From Bacteroidota bacterium (GTDB taxonomy: Bacteria; Bacteroidota; Bacteroidia; Palsa-948), in the NCBI GenBank assembly GCA_023251675.1, contig JAHEYJ010000021.1, positions 1-32,986 on the forward strand: 32,986 nt of DNA, in the 5' to 3' direction. Below, piece by piece: positions 1,247 through 17,547 of the stretch. The notes beneath the pieces were generated by a model. It did not search any database and had not been told where the DNA came from. It worked only from the letters and a program-made list of their open reading frames with translations. Numbering within the stretch: the stretch's first letter is position 1; the number at the start of each line of letters is the position of its first letter. Made by a program: the position numbers and the translations under genes.

Positions 1247-2917
1247 TTATTTCTTCTGTTGTTCTTTTGACCAGCCGTCTTTCAAGGCAACGGTCCGGTT
1301 AAAGATGATTTTTCCGGATGTTGAATCTTTATCTGCGCAAAAATATCCTTTGCGGATGAACTGAAACTTTTCCAATGGTTTTGCATTTCTCAGGCTGGGC
1401 TCTCCTAATGCATTTGGAATAATTTCCAGGCTTTTTTCGTTAAGGTATTCTTTGAAATCTCTTTCTTCTGCAGAAGGATTTTCAACTTTAAAAAGGCGGT
1501 CATATAATCTTACTTCAACGGGTACTGCCTGTGCGGCGCTGACCCAATGAATGGTTCCTTTTACAGAAATTCCGCTGGTGTCGCTTCCGCTTTTGCTTTC
1601 CGGAAAATACGTGCAGCGTATCTCAGCGATATTTCCTTTTGCGTCTTTCCTGAATGATTCGCATTTCAAAATATAGGCATGTTTCAAACGCACCACCAGC
1701 CCCGGGCCCATGCGGAAATATTTTTTTACAGGAATTTCCATAAAGTCATCACGCTCAATGAAAATTTCTTTGCAGAACGGAATTTCCCTTGTGCCTCCCA
1801 CTTCGGGAGCCTCCGGATTATTTTCCCCGGTAAGCGTTTCTGTTTTTCCATCCGGATAATTATCGATGACCACTTTCACCGGATCCATTACCACCATTAC
1901 GCGTGTGGCAATTTTGTTCAGGTCTTTTCGGACACAATGTTCGAGCAATTCCACATCAATGATATTTTCCCTTCTCGCAACGCCGATCACATCGCAGAAA
2001 TCGCGGATGCTTTCAGGCGTGTAACCTCTTCTGCGAAGCCCGCTGATGGTAGGCATGCGCGGATCGTCCCATCCGGTGACGTGTTTTTCGTTGACGAGCT
2101 GTAATAATTTCCGTTTGCTCATCACCGTATAATTCAGGTTCAACCGTGCAAATTCAAACTGATGGCTTGGAAAAATTCCCAGCTTCTCGATGAACCATTC
2201 ATATAACGGGCGGTGCACTTCAAATTCCAGTGTGCAAATAGAATGTGTGATCTGTTCAATCGAATCGCTTTGTCCGTGAGCGAAATCATACATCGGGTAA
2301 ATGCACCATTTGTCTTTTGTGCGGTGGTGATGTACATGCTTGATGCGATACATGAACGGATCGCGCAAGTGCATGTTCGGTGATGCCATATCCACTTTTG
2401 CCCGCAGCACTTTTTCTCCGTCCTTGAATTCTCCTTTGCGCATGCGCTCGAAGAGGTTAAGATTTTCTTCCACGCTGCGGTTACGGAACGGACTTTCTTT
2501 TCCGGGTTCAGTGGGAGTTCCTTTCATGGATGCAATTTGCTCTGCGGAACTGTCATCCACATACGCGAGTTGCTTTTTGATGAGCGTCACCGCGAACTCA
2601 TACAGCTTGTCGAAATAATCGGAAGCATAAAATTCATTCGCCCATTCAAAGCCGAGCCACTTTATATCTTCCTTGATGCTTTCAACGTATTCTGTTTCTT
2701 CCGCTTCGGGGTTGGTATCATCAAAACGCAGATTTGTTTTTCCGCCAAACTGTTTTGCCAATCCAAAGTTGAGGCAAATGGATTTTGAATGCCCGATGTG
2801 AAGATACCCGTTCGGTTCCGGAGGGAAGCGCGTGAGTACACGGCTGCCATGTTTACCGTTCTTCACATCTTCGCTGACTATTTCTTCTAAAAAGTTAGGG
2901 CCTTTTTCTGTGCTCAT
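1247..2917 (-). CDS. glnS: Glutaminyl-tRNA synthetase
   Basis: A 556-residue class I aminoacyl-tRNA synthetase that charges tRNA-Gln directly. The HIGH motif appears as [14 protein letters not shown] (HIGH at residues 40-43), and the KMSKS motif as VMSKRK near 265-270. The NLRFDDTNP segment and the C-terminal anticodon-binding beta-barrels (ending [14 protein letters not shown]...) are GlnRS-type rather than GluRS-type. Length matches the bacterial family (about 550). It starts 8 bp after the gltX stop, so the two Glu/Gln synthetases are co-transcribed. Having a real GlnRS means the Gln-tRNA supply need not go through the amidotransferase route. No irregularity was seen. Confidence 0.97.
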
Positions 2918-4500: not shown

Positions 4501-4587
4501 ATCTAATCTTTTACAAGTGAATCGATGTTTTGCCAAAAGACTGGATGCTACCCTAGGCAGGATAAATTTATACTTTTTGATTTTCAT

Positions 4588-4747
4588 TTTAGTTATTAGT
4601 TTTTAGTCATTGGTTATGGTTTTGCAGTTTCTTGATGTAGTTGTTTAATCTGAGGGAATACTTACCGGAATTAGTAACTAACGAAGCATACAAACTAAAA
4701 CCGAAAACTAATTCAACTAAAACTAAAAACCAACAAACTATGAACTA
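4588..4747. repeat. Inverted pair of heptamer arrays (TTTAGTT / AAACTAA family)
   Basis: The 332-bp gap between gltX and the sugar permease holds no gene. The left arm (4588-4622) reads TTTAGTT, ATTAGTT, TTTAGTC, ATTGGTT, ATGGTTT. The right arm (4691-4747) reads CAAACTA, AAACCGA, AAACTAA, TTCAACTA, AAACTAA, AAACCAA, CAAACTA, TGAACTA. The consensus of one arm is the reverse complement of the other, so the region can form a long imperfect hairpin with a loop of about 70 bp. It lies between the end of the permease gene and the gltX promoter and could act as a terminator for the permease. I see nothing else in the gap. Confidence 0.7.
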
Positions 4748-6223: not shown

Positions 6224-7132
6224 ATGCAACTTCTTTCTCCAGAGAACTTCAACGAGTACGAACTCATCGACTGCGGTGATTTTGAAAAGCTCGAACGGTT
6301 CGGCGCATACATCACAATCCGTCCTGAACCCCAGGCGGTATGGAGTAAAAAACTTTCTCCTGCTGAGTGGGAGAAAACGGCTCATGTGAAATTTATTCAG
6401 AAGGGAAATAATTCCGGGGAATGGATGAAGCTGAAGCAGATGCCGGATAAATGGCAAATAAGTTATCAAGTCAAAAGTCAAAAGTCAAAAGGGAGCAGCC
6501 AACTCAATTTTAAACTTTCCCTTACTTCTTTCAAACATGTAGGAATTTTTCCGGAACAGGCGGTAAACTGGAAATACATTTATGATTCAATACAACGCCT
6601 CACCCCCAATCCCTCTCCACCGGGAGAGGGGAGAGTTAAGTTTTTAAATTTATTTGCTTATACCGGAGCTGCTTCTCTTGCCGCCAAAGCGGCCGGTGCT
6701 GATGTAACGCATTTAGACTCGGTTAAGCAGGTGGTTACATGGGCGCGGGAGAACATGGAGCAGAGCGGGTTAACGGACATCCGCTGGATCGTTGAAGATG
6801 CGCTTAAGTTTGTGAAGCGCGAAGTGAAACGCGAAAATAAATACCACGGGATCATTCTCGATCCGCCGGCTTACGGCATCGGCGCAAACGGCGAGAAATG
6901 GAAGCTGGAGGAGAACATCCAGGAGATGATCTTCAATGTTCTTCAGTTGCTGGATGAAAAAAAACATTTCCTGATCCTGAATGCGTACTCTCTTGGATTT
7001 TCATCCCTTATTATAGAAAACCTGCTTAAAGATTTTGCCAAAGACAAACTGGAGACAGGCGAACTTTTTCTCCATTCAAAGACCAGCCTGAAATTACCGC
7101 TGGGCGTTTTCGGAAGGTTTCGGAATTTTTGA
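6224..7132 (+). CDS. Class I SAM-dependent methyltransferase, RlmI/YwbD-like
   Basis: About 302 residues. The start at 6224 (MQLLSPENFNEYELIDCGDFEKLERFG) matches the family opening; the frame is open upstream to 6149, but that extension is Ser/Phe-rich and unlike the family. Motif I is VKFLNLFAYTGAASLAAKAAGADVTHLD, where SAM binds, and the target-site motif is ILDPPAYG. This group (PF10672-like) is related to rRNA cytosine-C5 methyltransferases; the actual substrate is unproven. Two insertions look foreign. QVKSQKSK near residues 81-89 is written by three copies of AGTCAAA. RLTPNPSPPGEGR near 125-136 is written by a CCCTCTCC/GGAGAGGG palindrome. Both fall in loops between core elements and keep the frame. 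Otherwise the enzyme looks complete. Confidence 0.88.
   Translation: MQLLSPENFNEYELIDCGDFEKLERFGAYITIRPEPQAVWSKKLSPAEWEKTAHVKFIQKGNNSGEWMKLKQMPDKWQISYQVKSQKSKGSSQLNFKLSLTSFKHVGIFPEQAVNWKYIYDSIQRLTPNPSPPGEGRVKFLNLFAYTGAASLAAKAAGADVTHLDSVKQVVTWARENMEQSGLTDIRWIVEDALKFVKREVKRENKYHGIILDPPAYGIGANGEKWKLEENIQEMIFNVLQLLDEKKHFLILNAYSLGFSSLIIENLLKDFAKDKLETGELFLHSKTSLKLPLGVFGRFRNF
6469..6489. repeat. 3 x AGTCAAA tandem array inside the methyltransferase
   Basis: Three perfect copies of the heptamer AGTCAAA, with a partial fourth. They are translated in frame as VKSQKSK just before the conserved strand QLNFKLSLTSFKHVG. The same word, as AAGTCAA and AAGTCAT, recurs in the spacer after rsgA (27538-27600). 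Confidence 0.8.
6596..6637. repeat. Palindromic element encoding LTPNPSPPGEGR inside the methyltransferase
   Basis: CCCTCTCC (6611-6618), ACCG loop, GGAGAGGG (6623-6630): perfect 8-bp arms preceded by CTCACCCCCAAT. I recall LTPNPSPxGEG as a recurring translated palindromic repeat in unrelated bacterial proteins, but I cannot run a search to confirm it. Here it sits between a helix (YIYDSIQ) and SAM motif I and keeps the frame. Confidence 0.7.
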
Positions 7133-11671: not shown

Positions 11672-11697
11672 CAAAAGTAAAAATTATCTACCCTGTG

Positions 11698-14187
11698 ATG
11701 TGTCGGGCCGCAAATATAGTATTCCTCTTTATTATCTCTCTTTCTATTGATTTATTCTCTCAGGAGCAGGTTCAGAAATTTACCATCAGCGGTTATATTA
11801 AGGAGAATGCTACGGGTGAATTCTCTATTGGCGCAAATGTGTATCTCAAAAAGAAGAATGCGGATGACCGTAAAGGTGTTGTGACCAACGCCTATGGCTT
11901 TTTTTCCATAACTCTTGAAAAAGGAGAATACCAGATGGCGGTGAATTATCTTGGCTTTGAGGATTTCAAAAAGGATATCACGCTCGATAAAGATATCCGT
12001 TTGAATATTTCGATGAAGGAGAAAGCGGTAACGGCAAAAGAAGTGGAGATCGTTGGAGAAAAAACAGATGAGAATATTCAAAAGAGTGAAATGAGTATGA
12101 TCTCGCTGGATATTGATAAAATAAAAGAGCTTCCCACATTCATGGGCGAAATGGATATTCTAAAAACCATTCAACTTCTTCCGGGTGTCCAATCAACTGA
12201 AGGGAACACCGGGTTTTATGTTCGCGGGGGAGGACCTGACCAAAACCTGGTGCTGCTGGATGAAGCGGTGGTTTACAATACCGGTCATCTTTTCGGATTT
12301 TTTTCTGTGTTCAACGGCGATGCGGTAAAAAATATTGAACTCTATAAAGGAAATATGCCCGCTCAGTACGGCGGAAGGCTTTCTTCTGTGCTGGACGTGC
12401 AGATGAAAGACGGCAATACGCAGAACGTTCATGCCCAGGGCGGAATTGGAATTATTTCTTCCCGTCTTACAGTGGAAGGTCCGATCAAGAAAGATACTGC
12501 ATCGTTCCTGATCTCCGCCAGGAGGACGTACATTGATATTCTTACGAAGCCTTTTATTAAGAAAAGTTCGTTCACGGGATCTGCCTATTACTTTTATGAC
12601 CTGAATTTGAAATTGAACTATCGTTTATCGGATAAAGACCGGCTTTTTCTCAGCGGGTATTTCGGCAGGGATGTCTTTACTTTTAAGAATTCCTATGGCG
12701 GAGGTGACAACAGTACTTTTAAAGTGAGCATGCCCTGGGGAAACGCCACAACAACCCTCCGGTGGAACCACCTCATCACGCAAAAACTTTTCATGAACAC
12801 TTCTGCTGTTTTCAGCGATTATAAGTTTCAGTTCGGAGCAAAGGAAAGCCAGTTTGAGTTTAAATTATTTTCCGGTATCCGCGACTGGAATGCAAAGATC
12901 GATTTCGGGTATTTTCCGAATGTGAAACACAATATTAAGTATGGCGTGAATTACATTTACCACACGTTCATTCCCAACCAGGCCAGTGCAAAAGCCGGAG
13001 ACGTTGAAATGGATCTGGGTGAAGCGCCAAAACTGCATGCGCACGATGCCGCCATTTATATCGGCGATGATTATGATGTAACCGATAAGATCCGCCTTAA
13101 TGCAGGCCTTCGCTATTCTTATTTTATGCAGGTTGGCCCTTTTGAACGGTACATAAAAGATCCGATCTCTCAACGGATTACAGATACGATCGTTTACAAA
13201 AGCGGCGAGAAAATTTGCAGTTACGGCGGACTCGAACCCCGTGCATCAGTCCGGTACACGCTGAATAAAAAATCTTCCATTAAAGCTGGCTTTGCTCAGA
13301 ACTACCAATACATTCATCTGGCATCGATCTCGTCGGTTTCACTTCCTACGGATCTCTGGATGCCAAGCACTTCGGTCGTAAAACCTCAGTTAAGCACGCA
13401 ATATTCACTGGGTTATTACAGGAATTTCATGGAAGATAAATTTGAAACTTCTGTAGAAGTATATTATAAAGATATGCGTAACATGATCGAGTTTAAAGAA
13501 GGCTCACTGCCTGATCAAAATGTAAAAGACAATGTGGACAATGCATTTACTTTTGGAAAGGGCTGGTCCTACGGCGCAGAACTCTTTTTAAAGAAACGCA
13601 CCGGAAGATTTACAGGATGGATCGGTTATACGTATGCCTGGACCTGGAGGCAGTTTGATTCCATCAATCTCGGCCAGAAGTTTCCCGCTAAATACGACCG
13701 GCGACACGATCTGTCAGTAGCACTCACGTGGGATTACAATTCACGTTTTTCATTCGGAGGAGTATTTGTCTTTGCAACGGGAAACACAGCAACTCTTCCT
13801 GTTTCGTGGTACATGGTAGAAGGGCAGATGATCCCGGAATATGGGGACAGGAATTCATTCCGAATGGCTCCATATCACCGGCTTGATCTTTCGATCACCT
13901 ACAATCCTGAACGGGCTCGGGCAAAGGCAAGGCAGCGCATTCGCTGGGAAAAACGTATGCAGAAAAAAGGAATTGACATAACCGGGAAAGAGATCCCCAA
14001 TGTCTGGTACAGAAATATTGAAAGTTCATGGGTGCTTTCCTGTTACAATGTGTATAACCGGCATAATCCGTATTTCATTTATTTTGAGAACGACGGCAAT
14101 ATTTATAACGGAACGTCCAACGTGACGGCTTACCAGGTCTCTTTGTTTCCTGTTCTGCCTTCACTAACCTGGAACTTTAAATTCTAA
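11698..14187 (+). CDS. TonB-dependent receptor with carboxypeptidase-regulatory-like N-terminus
   Basis: About 829 residues; the ATG at 11698 is preferred over a GTG three bases earlier. A signal peptide ends near FSQ. A carboxypeptidase-D regulatory-like beta-sandwich follows (TISGYIKENATGEFSIGANVYL... to about residue 110), then the plug domain (LLPGVQSTEGNTGFYVRGGGPDQNLVLLDEAVVYN) and a long barrel ending LFPVLPSLTWNFKF. There is no SusD partner; instead the next gene, 2 bp downstream, is a DUF4249 lipoprotein. That pairing recurs in Bacteroidota, where the lipoprotein is thought to act with the receptor at the outer membrane. The imported ligand is unknown. No truncation is visible. Confidence 0.94.
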   Translation: MCRAANIVFLFIISLSIDLFSQEQVQKFTISGYIKENATGEFSIGANVYLKKKNADDRKGVVTNAYGFFSITLEKGEYQMAVNYLGFEDFKKDITLDKDIRLNISMKEKAVTAKEVEIVGEKTDENIQKSEMSMISLDIDKIKELPTFMGEMDILKTIQLLPGVQSTEGNTGFYVRGGGPDQNLVLLDEAVVYNTGHLFGFFSVFNGDAVKNIELYKGNMPAQYGGRLSSVLDVQMKDGNTQNVHAQGGIGIISSRLTVEGPIKKDTASFLISARRTYIDILTKPFIKKSSFTGSAYYFYDLNLKLNYRLSDKDRLFLSGYFGRDVFTFKNSYGGGDNSTFKVSMPWGNATTTLRWNHLITQKLFMNTSAVFSDYKFQFGAKESQFEFKLFSGIRDWNAKIDFGYFPNVKHNIKYGVNYIYHTFIPNQASAKAGDVEMDLGEAPKLHAHDAAIYIGDDYDVTDKIRLNAGLRYSYFMQVGPFERYIKDPISQRITDTIVYKSGEKICSYGGLEPRASVRYTLNKKSSIKAGFAQNYQYIHLASISSVSLPTDLWMPSTSVVKPQLSTQYSLGYYRNFMEDKFETSVEVYYKDMRNMIEFKEGSLPDQNVKDNVDNAFTFGKGWSYGAELFLKKRTGRFTGWIGYTYAWTWRQFDSINLGQKFPAKYDRRHDLSVALTWDYNSRFSFGGVFVFATGNTATLPVSWYMVEGQMIPEYGDRNSFRMAPYHRLDLSITYNPERARAKARQRIRWEKRMQKKGIDITGKEIPNVWYRNIESSWVLSCYNVYNRHNPYFIYFENDGNIYNGTSNVTAYQVSLFPVLPSLTWNFKF

Positions 14188-14189
14188 AA

Positions 14190-15176
14190 ATGATTGTACA
14201 GAAAAAAAATAAATTTCTATTGAATTCCAGCTATTGGCTACTGGCTATTGGCTGCTGGCTTGCTGCTTCTTGCCAGAAGGAGATTAAAGTAAAACTCCCT
14301 GATGCAAAGCAAAAGATTTGTGTAGATGGAAGGATCGAACCCGGCATGCCGCCCTATGTGATCCTTACGCACAACATGCCTTACTTTGGCCCGACGGATA
14401 TCAACGCTTTGCAGCAGATGTTCGTTCATGATGCGGTGGTAACTATTTCAAACGGATCGACCACGGTCACTCTCATAGAATACTGTACGCAAAGTTTGCC
14501 GGATTCCATTCTTCCGATCGTAGCGGCCTTTACCGGTGTAGACACAGCTTCACTCAAGAACTTTAATTATTGCCTCTACACAACTTTTAATAACGCTGTT
14601 TGGGGAACAGCAGGCACCACCTATAATTTAACGGTTGATGTGGAAGGAAAGCATCTTACTGCCTCCACTTCGATCCTCACACCCATTCCTCTGGATCGGT
14701 TATGGACAAAATATTATAAAACCAATACTGCAGGCGATTCACTGGGATTCGTACAGGCCCATCTCACGGATCCAACCGTAGCAGGAAATGCATACCGTTG
14801 GCTTGCCATGAGAAAAGGAAGGGATCAGTCGTTTGTTGCTCCAACAGGATCGGCAAATGATGATAAATTTTTTAACGGGCAAAGTTTTGATTTTGAATAC
14901 AGCAGGGGAGTGGCTCCGGGTTCCAACTTGCCGGAAGATAGTTATGACAGCGGGGAATACGGGTGGTTCAAACAAGGGGATACGGTGATTGTAAAATTCT
15001 GTACGATTGATCGCGCTTCATTTGATTTTTTCAGAGGCGAAGATGTTGCTCTTTCCAGCCAGGGAAATCCCTTTGCAGCTCCGTCCTCGGTTCCTGCTAA
15101 TATTTATCCGCGCACGGATGCACTGGGTCTTTGGTGCGGTTACGGCACTTCACTGGATACGGTGATCTTTAAATGA
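14190..15176 (+). CDS. DUF4249 lipoprotein, partner of the TonB receptor
   Basis: 328 residues beginning 2 bp after the receptor stop, so translation is probably coupled. The mature part has the DUF4249 opening, KICVDGRIEPGMPPYVILTHNMPYFGP, and the family's typical end region (LGLWCGYGTS). The signal peptide is odd: SYWLLAIGCWLAASC, with the lipobox Cys near residue 28. Its hydrophobic core is written by four DNA heptamers of the form CTAYTGG at 14231-14258. The likely role is an outer-membrane-anchored substrate or accessory protein for the receptor; the molecular function of DUF4249 is not known. Confidence 0.88.
   Translation: MIVQKKNKFLLNSSYWLLAIGCWLAASCQKEIKVKLPDAKQKICVDGRIEPGMPPYVILTHNMPYFGPTDINALQQMFVHDAVVTISNGSTTVTLIEYCTQSLPDSILPIVAAFTGVDTASLKNFNYCLYTTFNNAVWGTAGTTYNLTVDVEGKHLTASTSILTPIPLDRLWTKYYKTNTAGDSLGFVQAHLTDPTVAGNAYRWLAMRKGRDQSFVAPTGSANDDKFFNGQSFDFEYSRGVAPGSNLPEDSYDSGEYGWFKQGDTVIVKFCTIDRASFDFFRGEDVALSSQGNPFAAPSSVPANIYPRTDALGLWCGYGTSLDTVIFK
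14231..14258. repeat. 4 x 7 bp word array encoding a signal-peptide core
   Basis: CTATTGG, CTACTGG, CTATTGG, CTGCTGG: exact 7-bp period, consensus CTAYTGG. It encodes YWLLAIGCW of the DUF4249 lipoprotein signal peptide. Confidence 0.8.
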
Positions 15177-16824: not shown

Positions 16825-17547
16825 ATGAAAAAAAGACGATTTAACCTTGTTTCTTGTTTTTTATTTTTTGTTTCGGTTTCTTTCTCTCAGGTAAAAAAAG
16901 GGGAGACGTATGAATTTAAGGACGTTTATGATTCTGCTTATGGTATTAATGTATACGAAGCGCTGAATATGGGTACCGGAGGCGACTCCACCCGGAACGA
17001 TGCAAAGGGATATGCAGCGCAGGGCTGGTATGAAGATTTCTACCCGAACGGGCAAACCCTTCATAAAGGATATTACATTGACGGCCAGTTAAAAGCCTAT
17101 AAAAACTTTTTTGAGAACGGGCAAGTGGAACGGGAATTCAAAATGACCGATCTTAATAAAAGCTCAATGAATGTATTTTATAAGGATGGAAAACCAAGAT
17201 CCATTATTGCCTATTCCGATAAAAATGCGATCAAAGAAGAAGATTATTTTGAAAGCGGGCAGCTGGAGTATATTGAAGAATATGATAAGAAAGGAGAATT
17301 CTACTTACAACGCAAATTTTTCAATCCAAACGGAAAACCTACCTCGCTGCTTGAAATCACAGACCAGAAACGACGACTATATTCAAGCAAAGAATATTAT
17401 GATAATGGAAATATTAAAGAAGAAGGGCCTATGGTTTACAGCGAAGAAGTGGGAGATTACCAGAAGAACGGTAAATGGAAATTTTATAAAGAGGATGGCA
17501 GCCTGAAGGAAGAAAAAACATACGCCAAAGGCGAAGAAGGAGACTAG
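16825..17547 (+). CDS. Secreted YwqK/MORN-like repeat protein
   Basis: 240 residues from MKKRRFNLVSCFLFFVSVSFSQ, a clean signal peptide. An in-frame ATG at 16789 sits 5 bp after a near-consensus box (TAGTTTTA) and would add 12 residues, but it would spoil the signal peptide. The mature protein is built of 20-25-residue units with the pattern YxxGQLKxYKxFFENGQVExEF: WYEDFYPNGQTLHKGYY, YKNFFENGQVEREF, VFYKDGKPRSIIAY, DYFESGQLEYIEEY, EYYDNGNIKEEG, WKFYKEDGSLKEEKTY. These are MORN_2/YwqK-type repeats. The antitoxin name used for YwqK is not well founded for such exported forms. Its stop overlaps the next start by one base, so the two are translationally coupled. Confidence 0.82.
   Translation: MKKRRFNLVSCFLFFVSVSFSQVKKGETYEFKDVYDSAYGINVYEALNMGTGGDSTRNDAKGYAAQGWYEDFYPNGQTLHKGYYIDGQLKAYKNFFENGQVEREFKMTDLNKSSMNVFYKDGKPRSIIAYSDKNAIKEEDYFESGQLEYIEEYDKKGEFYLQRKFFNPNGKPTSLLEITDQKRRLYSSKEYYDNGNIKEEGPMVYSEEVGDYQKNGKWKFYKEDGSLKEEKTYAKGEEGD

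Follow-up and report, generated by a model that had tools for sequence, protein, structure and literature searches.

Heptanucleotide repeat arrays encode the hydrophobic cores of predicted signal peptides in a genus of Bacteroidota

Leader peptides encoded by short tandem repeats are known from the Neisseria opa genes, in which (CTCTT)n repeats form part of the leader-coding sequence and cause phase variation (PMC5354566, PMC3960869, PMC3745409). This is the closest precedent for the locus described here, as both have a non-triplet short tandem repeat within the leader-coding sequence of an envelope protein. However, opa involves one unit in one gene family with variable copy number, whereas the arrays reported here comprise many units in dozens of unrelated genes, with 3-6 often imperfect units in frame. 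Heptamer repeats are over-represented and mostly intergenic (PMC4679880; GGGAATC, PMC4692102; also Mrazek 2007, as summarised in PMC4679880), and TAACTGA arrays translate into a single repeating heptapeptide, LSVISYQ, that is tolerated at protein ends (MacGregor 2015, PMC4679880). Period-7 arrays are likewise over-represented in our genomes, with head-to-tail units beyond chance. The described heptamers are mainly intergenic, whereas about a third of ours in an unbiased scan lie in leaders, belong to several unit families and show an effect of composition on hydropathy. Rickettsia palindromic elements, as outlined in PMC10969869 (citing Ogata 2000, 2002), are sequences of ~150 bp inserted in frame in genes, and in that summary share with our arrays the presence of dispersed repeats in frame within unrelated protein genes; they are described there as palindromic with a fixed frame and peptide, whereas here a 31-bp direct repeat array is frame-free and the hydrophobic arrays are mostly confined to leaders. 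In Borg elements, every tandem repeat within an ORF has a unit whose length is a multiple of three, and these repeats encode disordered regions (PMC9879509). In both cases fast-evolving tandem repeats make new protein segments and are enriched in extracellular proteins, but the triplet-multiple units of Borgs yield disorder and units of seven yield signal-peptide cores.

Among the open-licence papers that we searched, none describes signal peptides built from heptamers. New signal peptides are usually discussed as products of point mutation in N-termini under loose constraint. Here we describe a lipoprotein leader whose h-region is encoded by a heptamer array. The original prediction presented this array as one curious case; it turned out instead to belong to a genus-wide pattern in which unit sequences vary while period and hydrophobicity are shared. 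The reading we favour, and consider probable, is that the array is a working h-region and one member of a genome-wide period-7 population, in which a repeat process supplies arrays and selection on the peptide sorts the survivors.

The heptamer array in a DUF4249 leader

The array lies in a window of 32,986 nucleotides (the whole stretch of DNA analysed) from a genome of 3.4 Mb in 250 contigs, and six further genomes of this uncultured genus were compared, with one genome per species. The gene that contains it (Table 1) holds the only DUF4249 match in this genome (PF14054, E=8e-18, 65.4 bits against a Pfam gathering score of 28.5), and a gene for a TonB-dependent receptor is found directly upstream. 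Translation from the ATG at 14190 gives an N-terminus of MIVQKKNKFLLNSSYWLLAIGCWLAAS followed by CQKEIKVKLP..., with the array in frame. The units read exactly as had been claimed for 14231-14258 (CTATTGG, CTACTGG, CTATTGG, CTGCTGG), and in the frame of this ATG they do encode YWLLAIGCW, the proposed hydrophobic core of the leader. Tandem Repeats Finder (TRF) describes 14230-14260 as period 7 with 4.4 copies, 83% match and a score of 41, or as period 14 with a score of 55. The array sits 40 nt inside the gene, unlike the TAACTGA units that lie just upstream of start codons.

The n-region MIVQKKNKF is positively charged with three lysines, the h-region has the expected length of ~10-15 hydrophobic residues, and the leader was called SPII by our script. 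Compared with the lipobox [LVI][ASTVI][GAS]C, the sequence AASC fits at -1 (S), -2 (A) and +1 (C), while -3 is A and not L, V or I. The Cys and the CQK that follow the h-region are conserved in congeners, as is a motif SCQK-I-V-LP C-terminal to it. The array probably encodes the core of a functional Sec/lipoprotein signal peptide, and export of the protein is predicted.

Matches to GGCTAYTGGCTAYTGGCT with up to three mismatches occur three times in the window, all within this array, where dinucleotide shuffles expect 0.05. One alternative is that leucine-rich leaders become 7-periodic by accident of codon choice. The peptide is itself nearly 7-periodic, and when its codons were randomised synonymously the observed periodicity was reached in 44 of 20,000 trials, which favours this alternative; it was reached in none of 20,000 trials when codon order was shuffled. 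The genus-wide counts given below speak against it.

With up to two mismatches, GGCTAYTGGCTAYTGGCT marks seven separate arrays in the genome of the window, five of them leader cores and two intergenic, and the heptamer family of the DUF4249 array is thus also present between genes of the same genome. The five leaders belong to unrelated proteins: DUF4249 (YWLLAIGCWLAASC) and proteins that by sequence look TolB-like (LILAIGYWLLAYPCFSQ), LEA2-like (a lipoprotein, LLAISCWLLAIGFFSC), BatC-like with TPR (FIFGYCLLATGFISFGQ) and BamA-like (LLLLAAGCWLLAAPVFSQ); among these types, Pfam checks covered DUF4249 and, in a G001 relative, the BamA POTRA domain. A search for WLLAIGxWL-type leaders on unrelated lipoproteins, suggested alongside the original prediction, was thus positive in this genome and then in the genus. 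Other period-7 arrays of the window are listed in Table 1. A similar array to that in the methyltransferase-like gene is found at the same place in genome G006 (L187 19793-19829).

Table 1 Features of the window and of repeats in other records
Feature	Position	Strand	Basis
DUF4249 lipoprotein gene, 328 aa	14190..15176	+	ORF, translation, Pfam PF14054
TonB-dependent receptor gene: CarboxypepD_reg, Plug and barrel domains	11695..14187	+	Pfam
DUF4249 leader: n-region MIVQKKNKFLLNSS, h-region YWLLAIGCWLAA, predicted cleavage before C28 (AAS/CQKE)	14190..14273	+	Translation; downstream motif conserved
Heptamer array CTATTGG/CTACTGG/CTATTGG/CTGCTGG(CT), encodes DUF4249 h-region	14230..14260	+	TRF, shuffles, codon nulls
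Second leader array, CTTGTTT-type, encodes LVSCFLFFV in MKKRRFNLVSCFLFFVSVSFSQ	16846..16873 (TRF 16846-16882)	+	De novo lag-7 scan, TRF
AAGTCAA array inside methyltransferase-like gene, encodes hydrophilic YQVKSQKSKG	6464..6495	+	TRF, lag-7 scan
Intergenic array TTAGTCA/TTAGTTA, unit contains a stop	4587..4617	.	TRF; between ORF ending 4482 and ORF starting 4809
Second dispersed repeat	L420 1501-1520, L422 1501-1520, L423 1501-1520, L426 1501-1520		
Basic n-region repeat, upstream of heptamer h-region	L018 about 1440-1510; L264 leader; L312 array flank		
Polar heptamer arrays	L197 4268-4346; L199 2937-2974; L393 about 1500-1580		

Period-7 arrays across the genus

We scanned 835 kb sampled from six genomes of the genus de novo, identifying arrays by self-match at lags of 4-15; the array-finding thresholds and the gene caller were set by hand. 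The scan recovered 49 arrays of period 7, compared with a combined 19 for the other periods between 4 and 15: six of period 14 (the harmonic), five of period 8, three each of periods 6 and 10, two of period 12 and none of the remainder. Markov-2 simulations produced no period-7 arrays. The 49 arrays comprised 15 in predicted leaders, 22 in other coding sequence and 12 in intergenic DNA, the last figure being a possible under-count, since fragmented assemblies may lose long intergenic arrays where contigs end. Leaders make up 3.5% of the DNA yet hold 15 of the 49 arrays (binomial p=7e-11); other coding sequence makes up 87%.

Synonymous recoding of all 277 leaders gave a mean of 0.145 array-bearing leaders, with a maximum of two in 200 runs, and the codon-order null expects 0.005, against the 15 observed; only two leaders carry a period-8 array. 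With these numbers an accident of codon choice becomes extremely unlikely as the source of the periodicity. The repeat might alternatively act as nucleic acid near the start codon, in translation or in protein binding as proposed for TAACTGA, with the peptide being merely what selection permits. In BOGUAY, TAACTGA heptamers are indeed found immediately before start codons (PMC4679880). In our sample, however, 15 of 277 leader genes have an array within their first 35 codons, compared with 2 of 405 other genes, which rejects proximity to the start codon as the cause.

The units recovered were diverse (CTATTGG, CTACTGC, CTTACTG, CTTGCTG, CTTCTTG, CTTCTTA, CATTTGT, CATTTTT, TTTACTG, TTGTCTG and others). 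A single dispersed sequence is thereby ruled out, as the many units of the de novo scan have only their period in common.

A targeted search for three consecutive YTGNYTA units in all seven genomes of the genus found 78 distinct arrays. Leaders hold 51 of them, all on the sense strand, a share that is biased upward since the pattern was chosen partly from leader arrays (the unbiased figure is 15 of 49); 18 are intergenic and nine lie elsewhere in coding sequence, several of these nine resembling leaders that the caller missed. In 48 of the 51 leaders the array stands at the N-terminus of an ORF of at least 146 aa. It is followed by A/S/G-Q in 37 of the 51, which fits the Q-rule for signal peptidase I in Bacteroidetes (PMC5837995), and by a lipobox-like Cys in eight, with a ninth (L274) recognised on inspection. 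Pfam matches were found in seven of ten mature parts scanned, including BamA POTRA, OmpA, NamZ, PagL, Big_5 and CarboxypepD_reg.

The opa genes have exactly this layout, with a repeat of non-triplet unit in the leader-coding region of envelope proteins (PMC5354566, PMC3960869, PMC3745409), and the arrays could on that account be contingency loci that switch surface proteins on and off by frameshift. If phase were random, some two in three arrays should be out of frame, but 51 of the 78 are in-frame leaders and at most three are out-of-frame candidates followed by a gene on the same strand. Moreover, the arrays have only 3-6 units, many of them are imperfect, and some lie on presumably essential genes (BamA). 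Given their shortness, their frequent imperfections and the in-frame position of nearly all of them, we consider phase variation improbable. One array in L284 (TTGTCTATTGTCTATTGTTTA) has a leader-like ORF, MQSIQYTVNSRQKFVYCLLFT, that stops just past the array and 40 nt before a 157-aa gene, and is possibly an out-of-frame leader.

Reading frame, base composition and unit turnover

Since 7 is coprime to 3, translation of a heptamer array yields the same cyclic heptapeptide whichever frame is used. For CTATTGG this peptide is LLAIGYW; the reverse complement encodes PIANSQ-stop. The original prediction held that such an array changes frame with every unit yet yields only hydrophobic residues. The first part stands, as the same heptapeptide results in every frame; the second was overstated, as LLAIGYW includes G, Y and W and has a mean Kyte-Doolittle (KD) value of 1.6. 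In every 21 nt each base of the unit occupies the second codon position exactly once. The count of T minus A is therefore a predictor of hydropathy (r=0.91 across the full set of stop-free heptamers). Stop-free heptamers with a KD of at least 1.3 account for 8.9% of heptamers.

The arrays follow this composition rule. On the sense strand, T and A make up 52% and 17% of leader arrays, compared with 27% and 33% of arrays in other coding sequence, and the mean KD is 1.6 for the former vs -0.4 for the latter (p=2e-4), with leaders here called by a home-made routine that requires hydrophobicity and therefore favours hydrophobic arrays. The reversed pattern ATYNGTY was first meant as a neutral control but is unusable as a blank because it is itself a heptamer family, and it was used instead as a contrast in coding content. 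Within this family ATTTGTC (stop-free, hydrophobic) occurs in leaders, ATTAGTC (with a stop) between genes, and ATCCGTC (polar, stop-free) inside coding sequence. Polar heptamer arrays in large proteins (DRRQTTDD, SINHQPSTINHS, PSSVIRHPSSVIRH) may be repeat-built linkers.

Unit sequences turn over between orthologues. At the same position of the DUF4249 leader, CTACTGC is found in G006 and CTTGCTG in G004, with no clear array in G001, G003 and G005. The core is thus replaced in close relatives, two of which carry a different heptamer array, and none of the congener orthologues examined combines the same peptide with non-periodic DNA. The TolB-like leader has CTATTGG in the genome of the window, CTTACTG in G006 and CTTACTG/CTATTGC in G005; the BatC leader has CTAYTGG in the genome of the window, G001 and G005, and a CTACTGC-like unit in G006; the LEA2 leader has arrays in the genome of the window and G001 only. 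Because orthologues differ in their units, a binder that recognises one particular sequence is unlikely, and together with the leader counts above this leaves a role for the nucleic acid itself very improbable.

In a species tree based on the mature protein parts, the groupings (G001,G005) and (G002,G003) are well resolved, the remainder is not, and deep support is weak. At position 4 of the unit, G predominates in G001, T in G003 and C in G006 (chi-square p=8e-23, with units within an array not being independent). Unit type is thus partly species-specific, and the leader arrays of a species share it with the intergenic ones, which suggests that units spread or are homogenised within a genome. 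These data bear on the main rival to our reading, namely that arrays grew by slippage in situ, from T-rich h-region codons of pre-existing leaders, and were never non-coding. Leaders do contain many different unit sequences, and period 7 is the commonest period of long repeats in many bacteria according to the account of Mrazek 2007 in PMC4679880. Local growth alone, however, does not predict the sharing of unit types among unrelated leaders and intergenic DNA within a species, and we regard growth purely in situ as rather unlikely, though it deserves to be taken seriously.

A second dispersed repeat (CTCCCTCCC...GGGGAGGGTTGGGGTGGGGCTTCTTTTT, a palindrome with a tail) also forms leader cores, RVGVGLLFLFASC, PLGRVGVGLLFLFLFFSSC and RVGVGLLFFLLPLFLFAG, in G004 and G005. 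In addition, the long basic n-regions of unrelated leaders (RLHRLFHRSTN.LRTYELR) look as if built from another dispersed repeat (GATTACACCGATTA / TACGAAC).

A proposed origin for the arrays, and their range

In the explanation we favour, supply by a repeat process followed by sorting at the level of the peptide, period-7 arrays would arise and turn over by replication slippage, by dispersal of array units or by both, and selection on the encoded peptide would decide where they survive. With at least three units an array gives the same cyclic heptapeptide in any frame, hydrophobic from a T-rich strand and hydrophilic from an A-rich one. Stop-free T-rich units would be tolerated as, and serve as, the h-regions of signal peptides, while stop-free A-rich units would persist in hydrophilic segments of proteins and stop-bearing units between genes. 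Hydrophobic arrays would be kept in h-regions because an h-region demands hydrophobicity alone, and could survive there because the heptapeptide is independent of frame and its hydropathy is set by base composition. We infer that the leaders export their proteins, that arrays enter them from the non-coding pool and that slippage is the engine.

We suggest only tentatively that a continuous 7-bp process re-seeds secretion signals, such that signal peptides are drawn from, and homogenised with, a shared repeat pool and do not evolve residue by residue alone. As arrays are frame-free and hydrophobic on their T-rich strand, non-coding arrays would on such a reading be ready-made h-regions. Simple DNA repeats seem in any case to be recurrent raw material for secretion signals in this genus. 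If the favoured explanation is true, a 7-bp mutational process supplies a functional element to the products of many unrelated genes, and the outcome becomes predictable and testable through the period indivisible by three and the composition-set hydropathy. It would also account for the abundance of a frame-breaking repeat inside genes that it does not destroy, and leaders in such genomes would be unusable as evidence of protein homology.

Elsewhere in the class, a de novo scan of 362 kb from 20 genomes found six arrays, from two genomes, and no leader arrays in that sample. In other genomes of the class with the same heptamers, arrays were intergenic in 23 of 29 cases and, in a second set, in 15 of 23; in the genus, by contrast, the intergenic share is 12 of 49 in the unbiased scan and 18 of 78 for YTGNYTA. 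Two array leaders were nevertheless found in G023, of another family, and two in Paludibacteraceae records (L059, L156), and leader use is therefore not confined to the genus, though common only there so far. A scan across Bacteria found TTGGCTAY arrays in many phyla, mostly intergenic (79 of 126), with ten called leaders of which about four look genuine. By far the richest genome encountered in the class is G213, with 645 matches to YTGNYTA in its 3.1 Mb and almost none to the reversed pattern. In G007, long telomere-like heptamer arrays of GGGTTTT/GGGTTTC extend into predicted ORFs (L224 12522-12625, 17483-17628).
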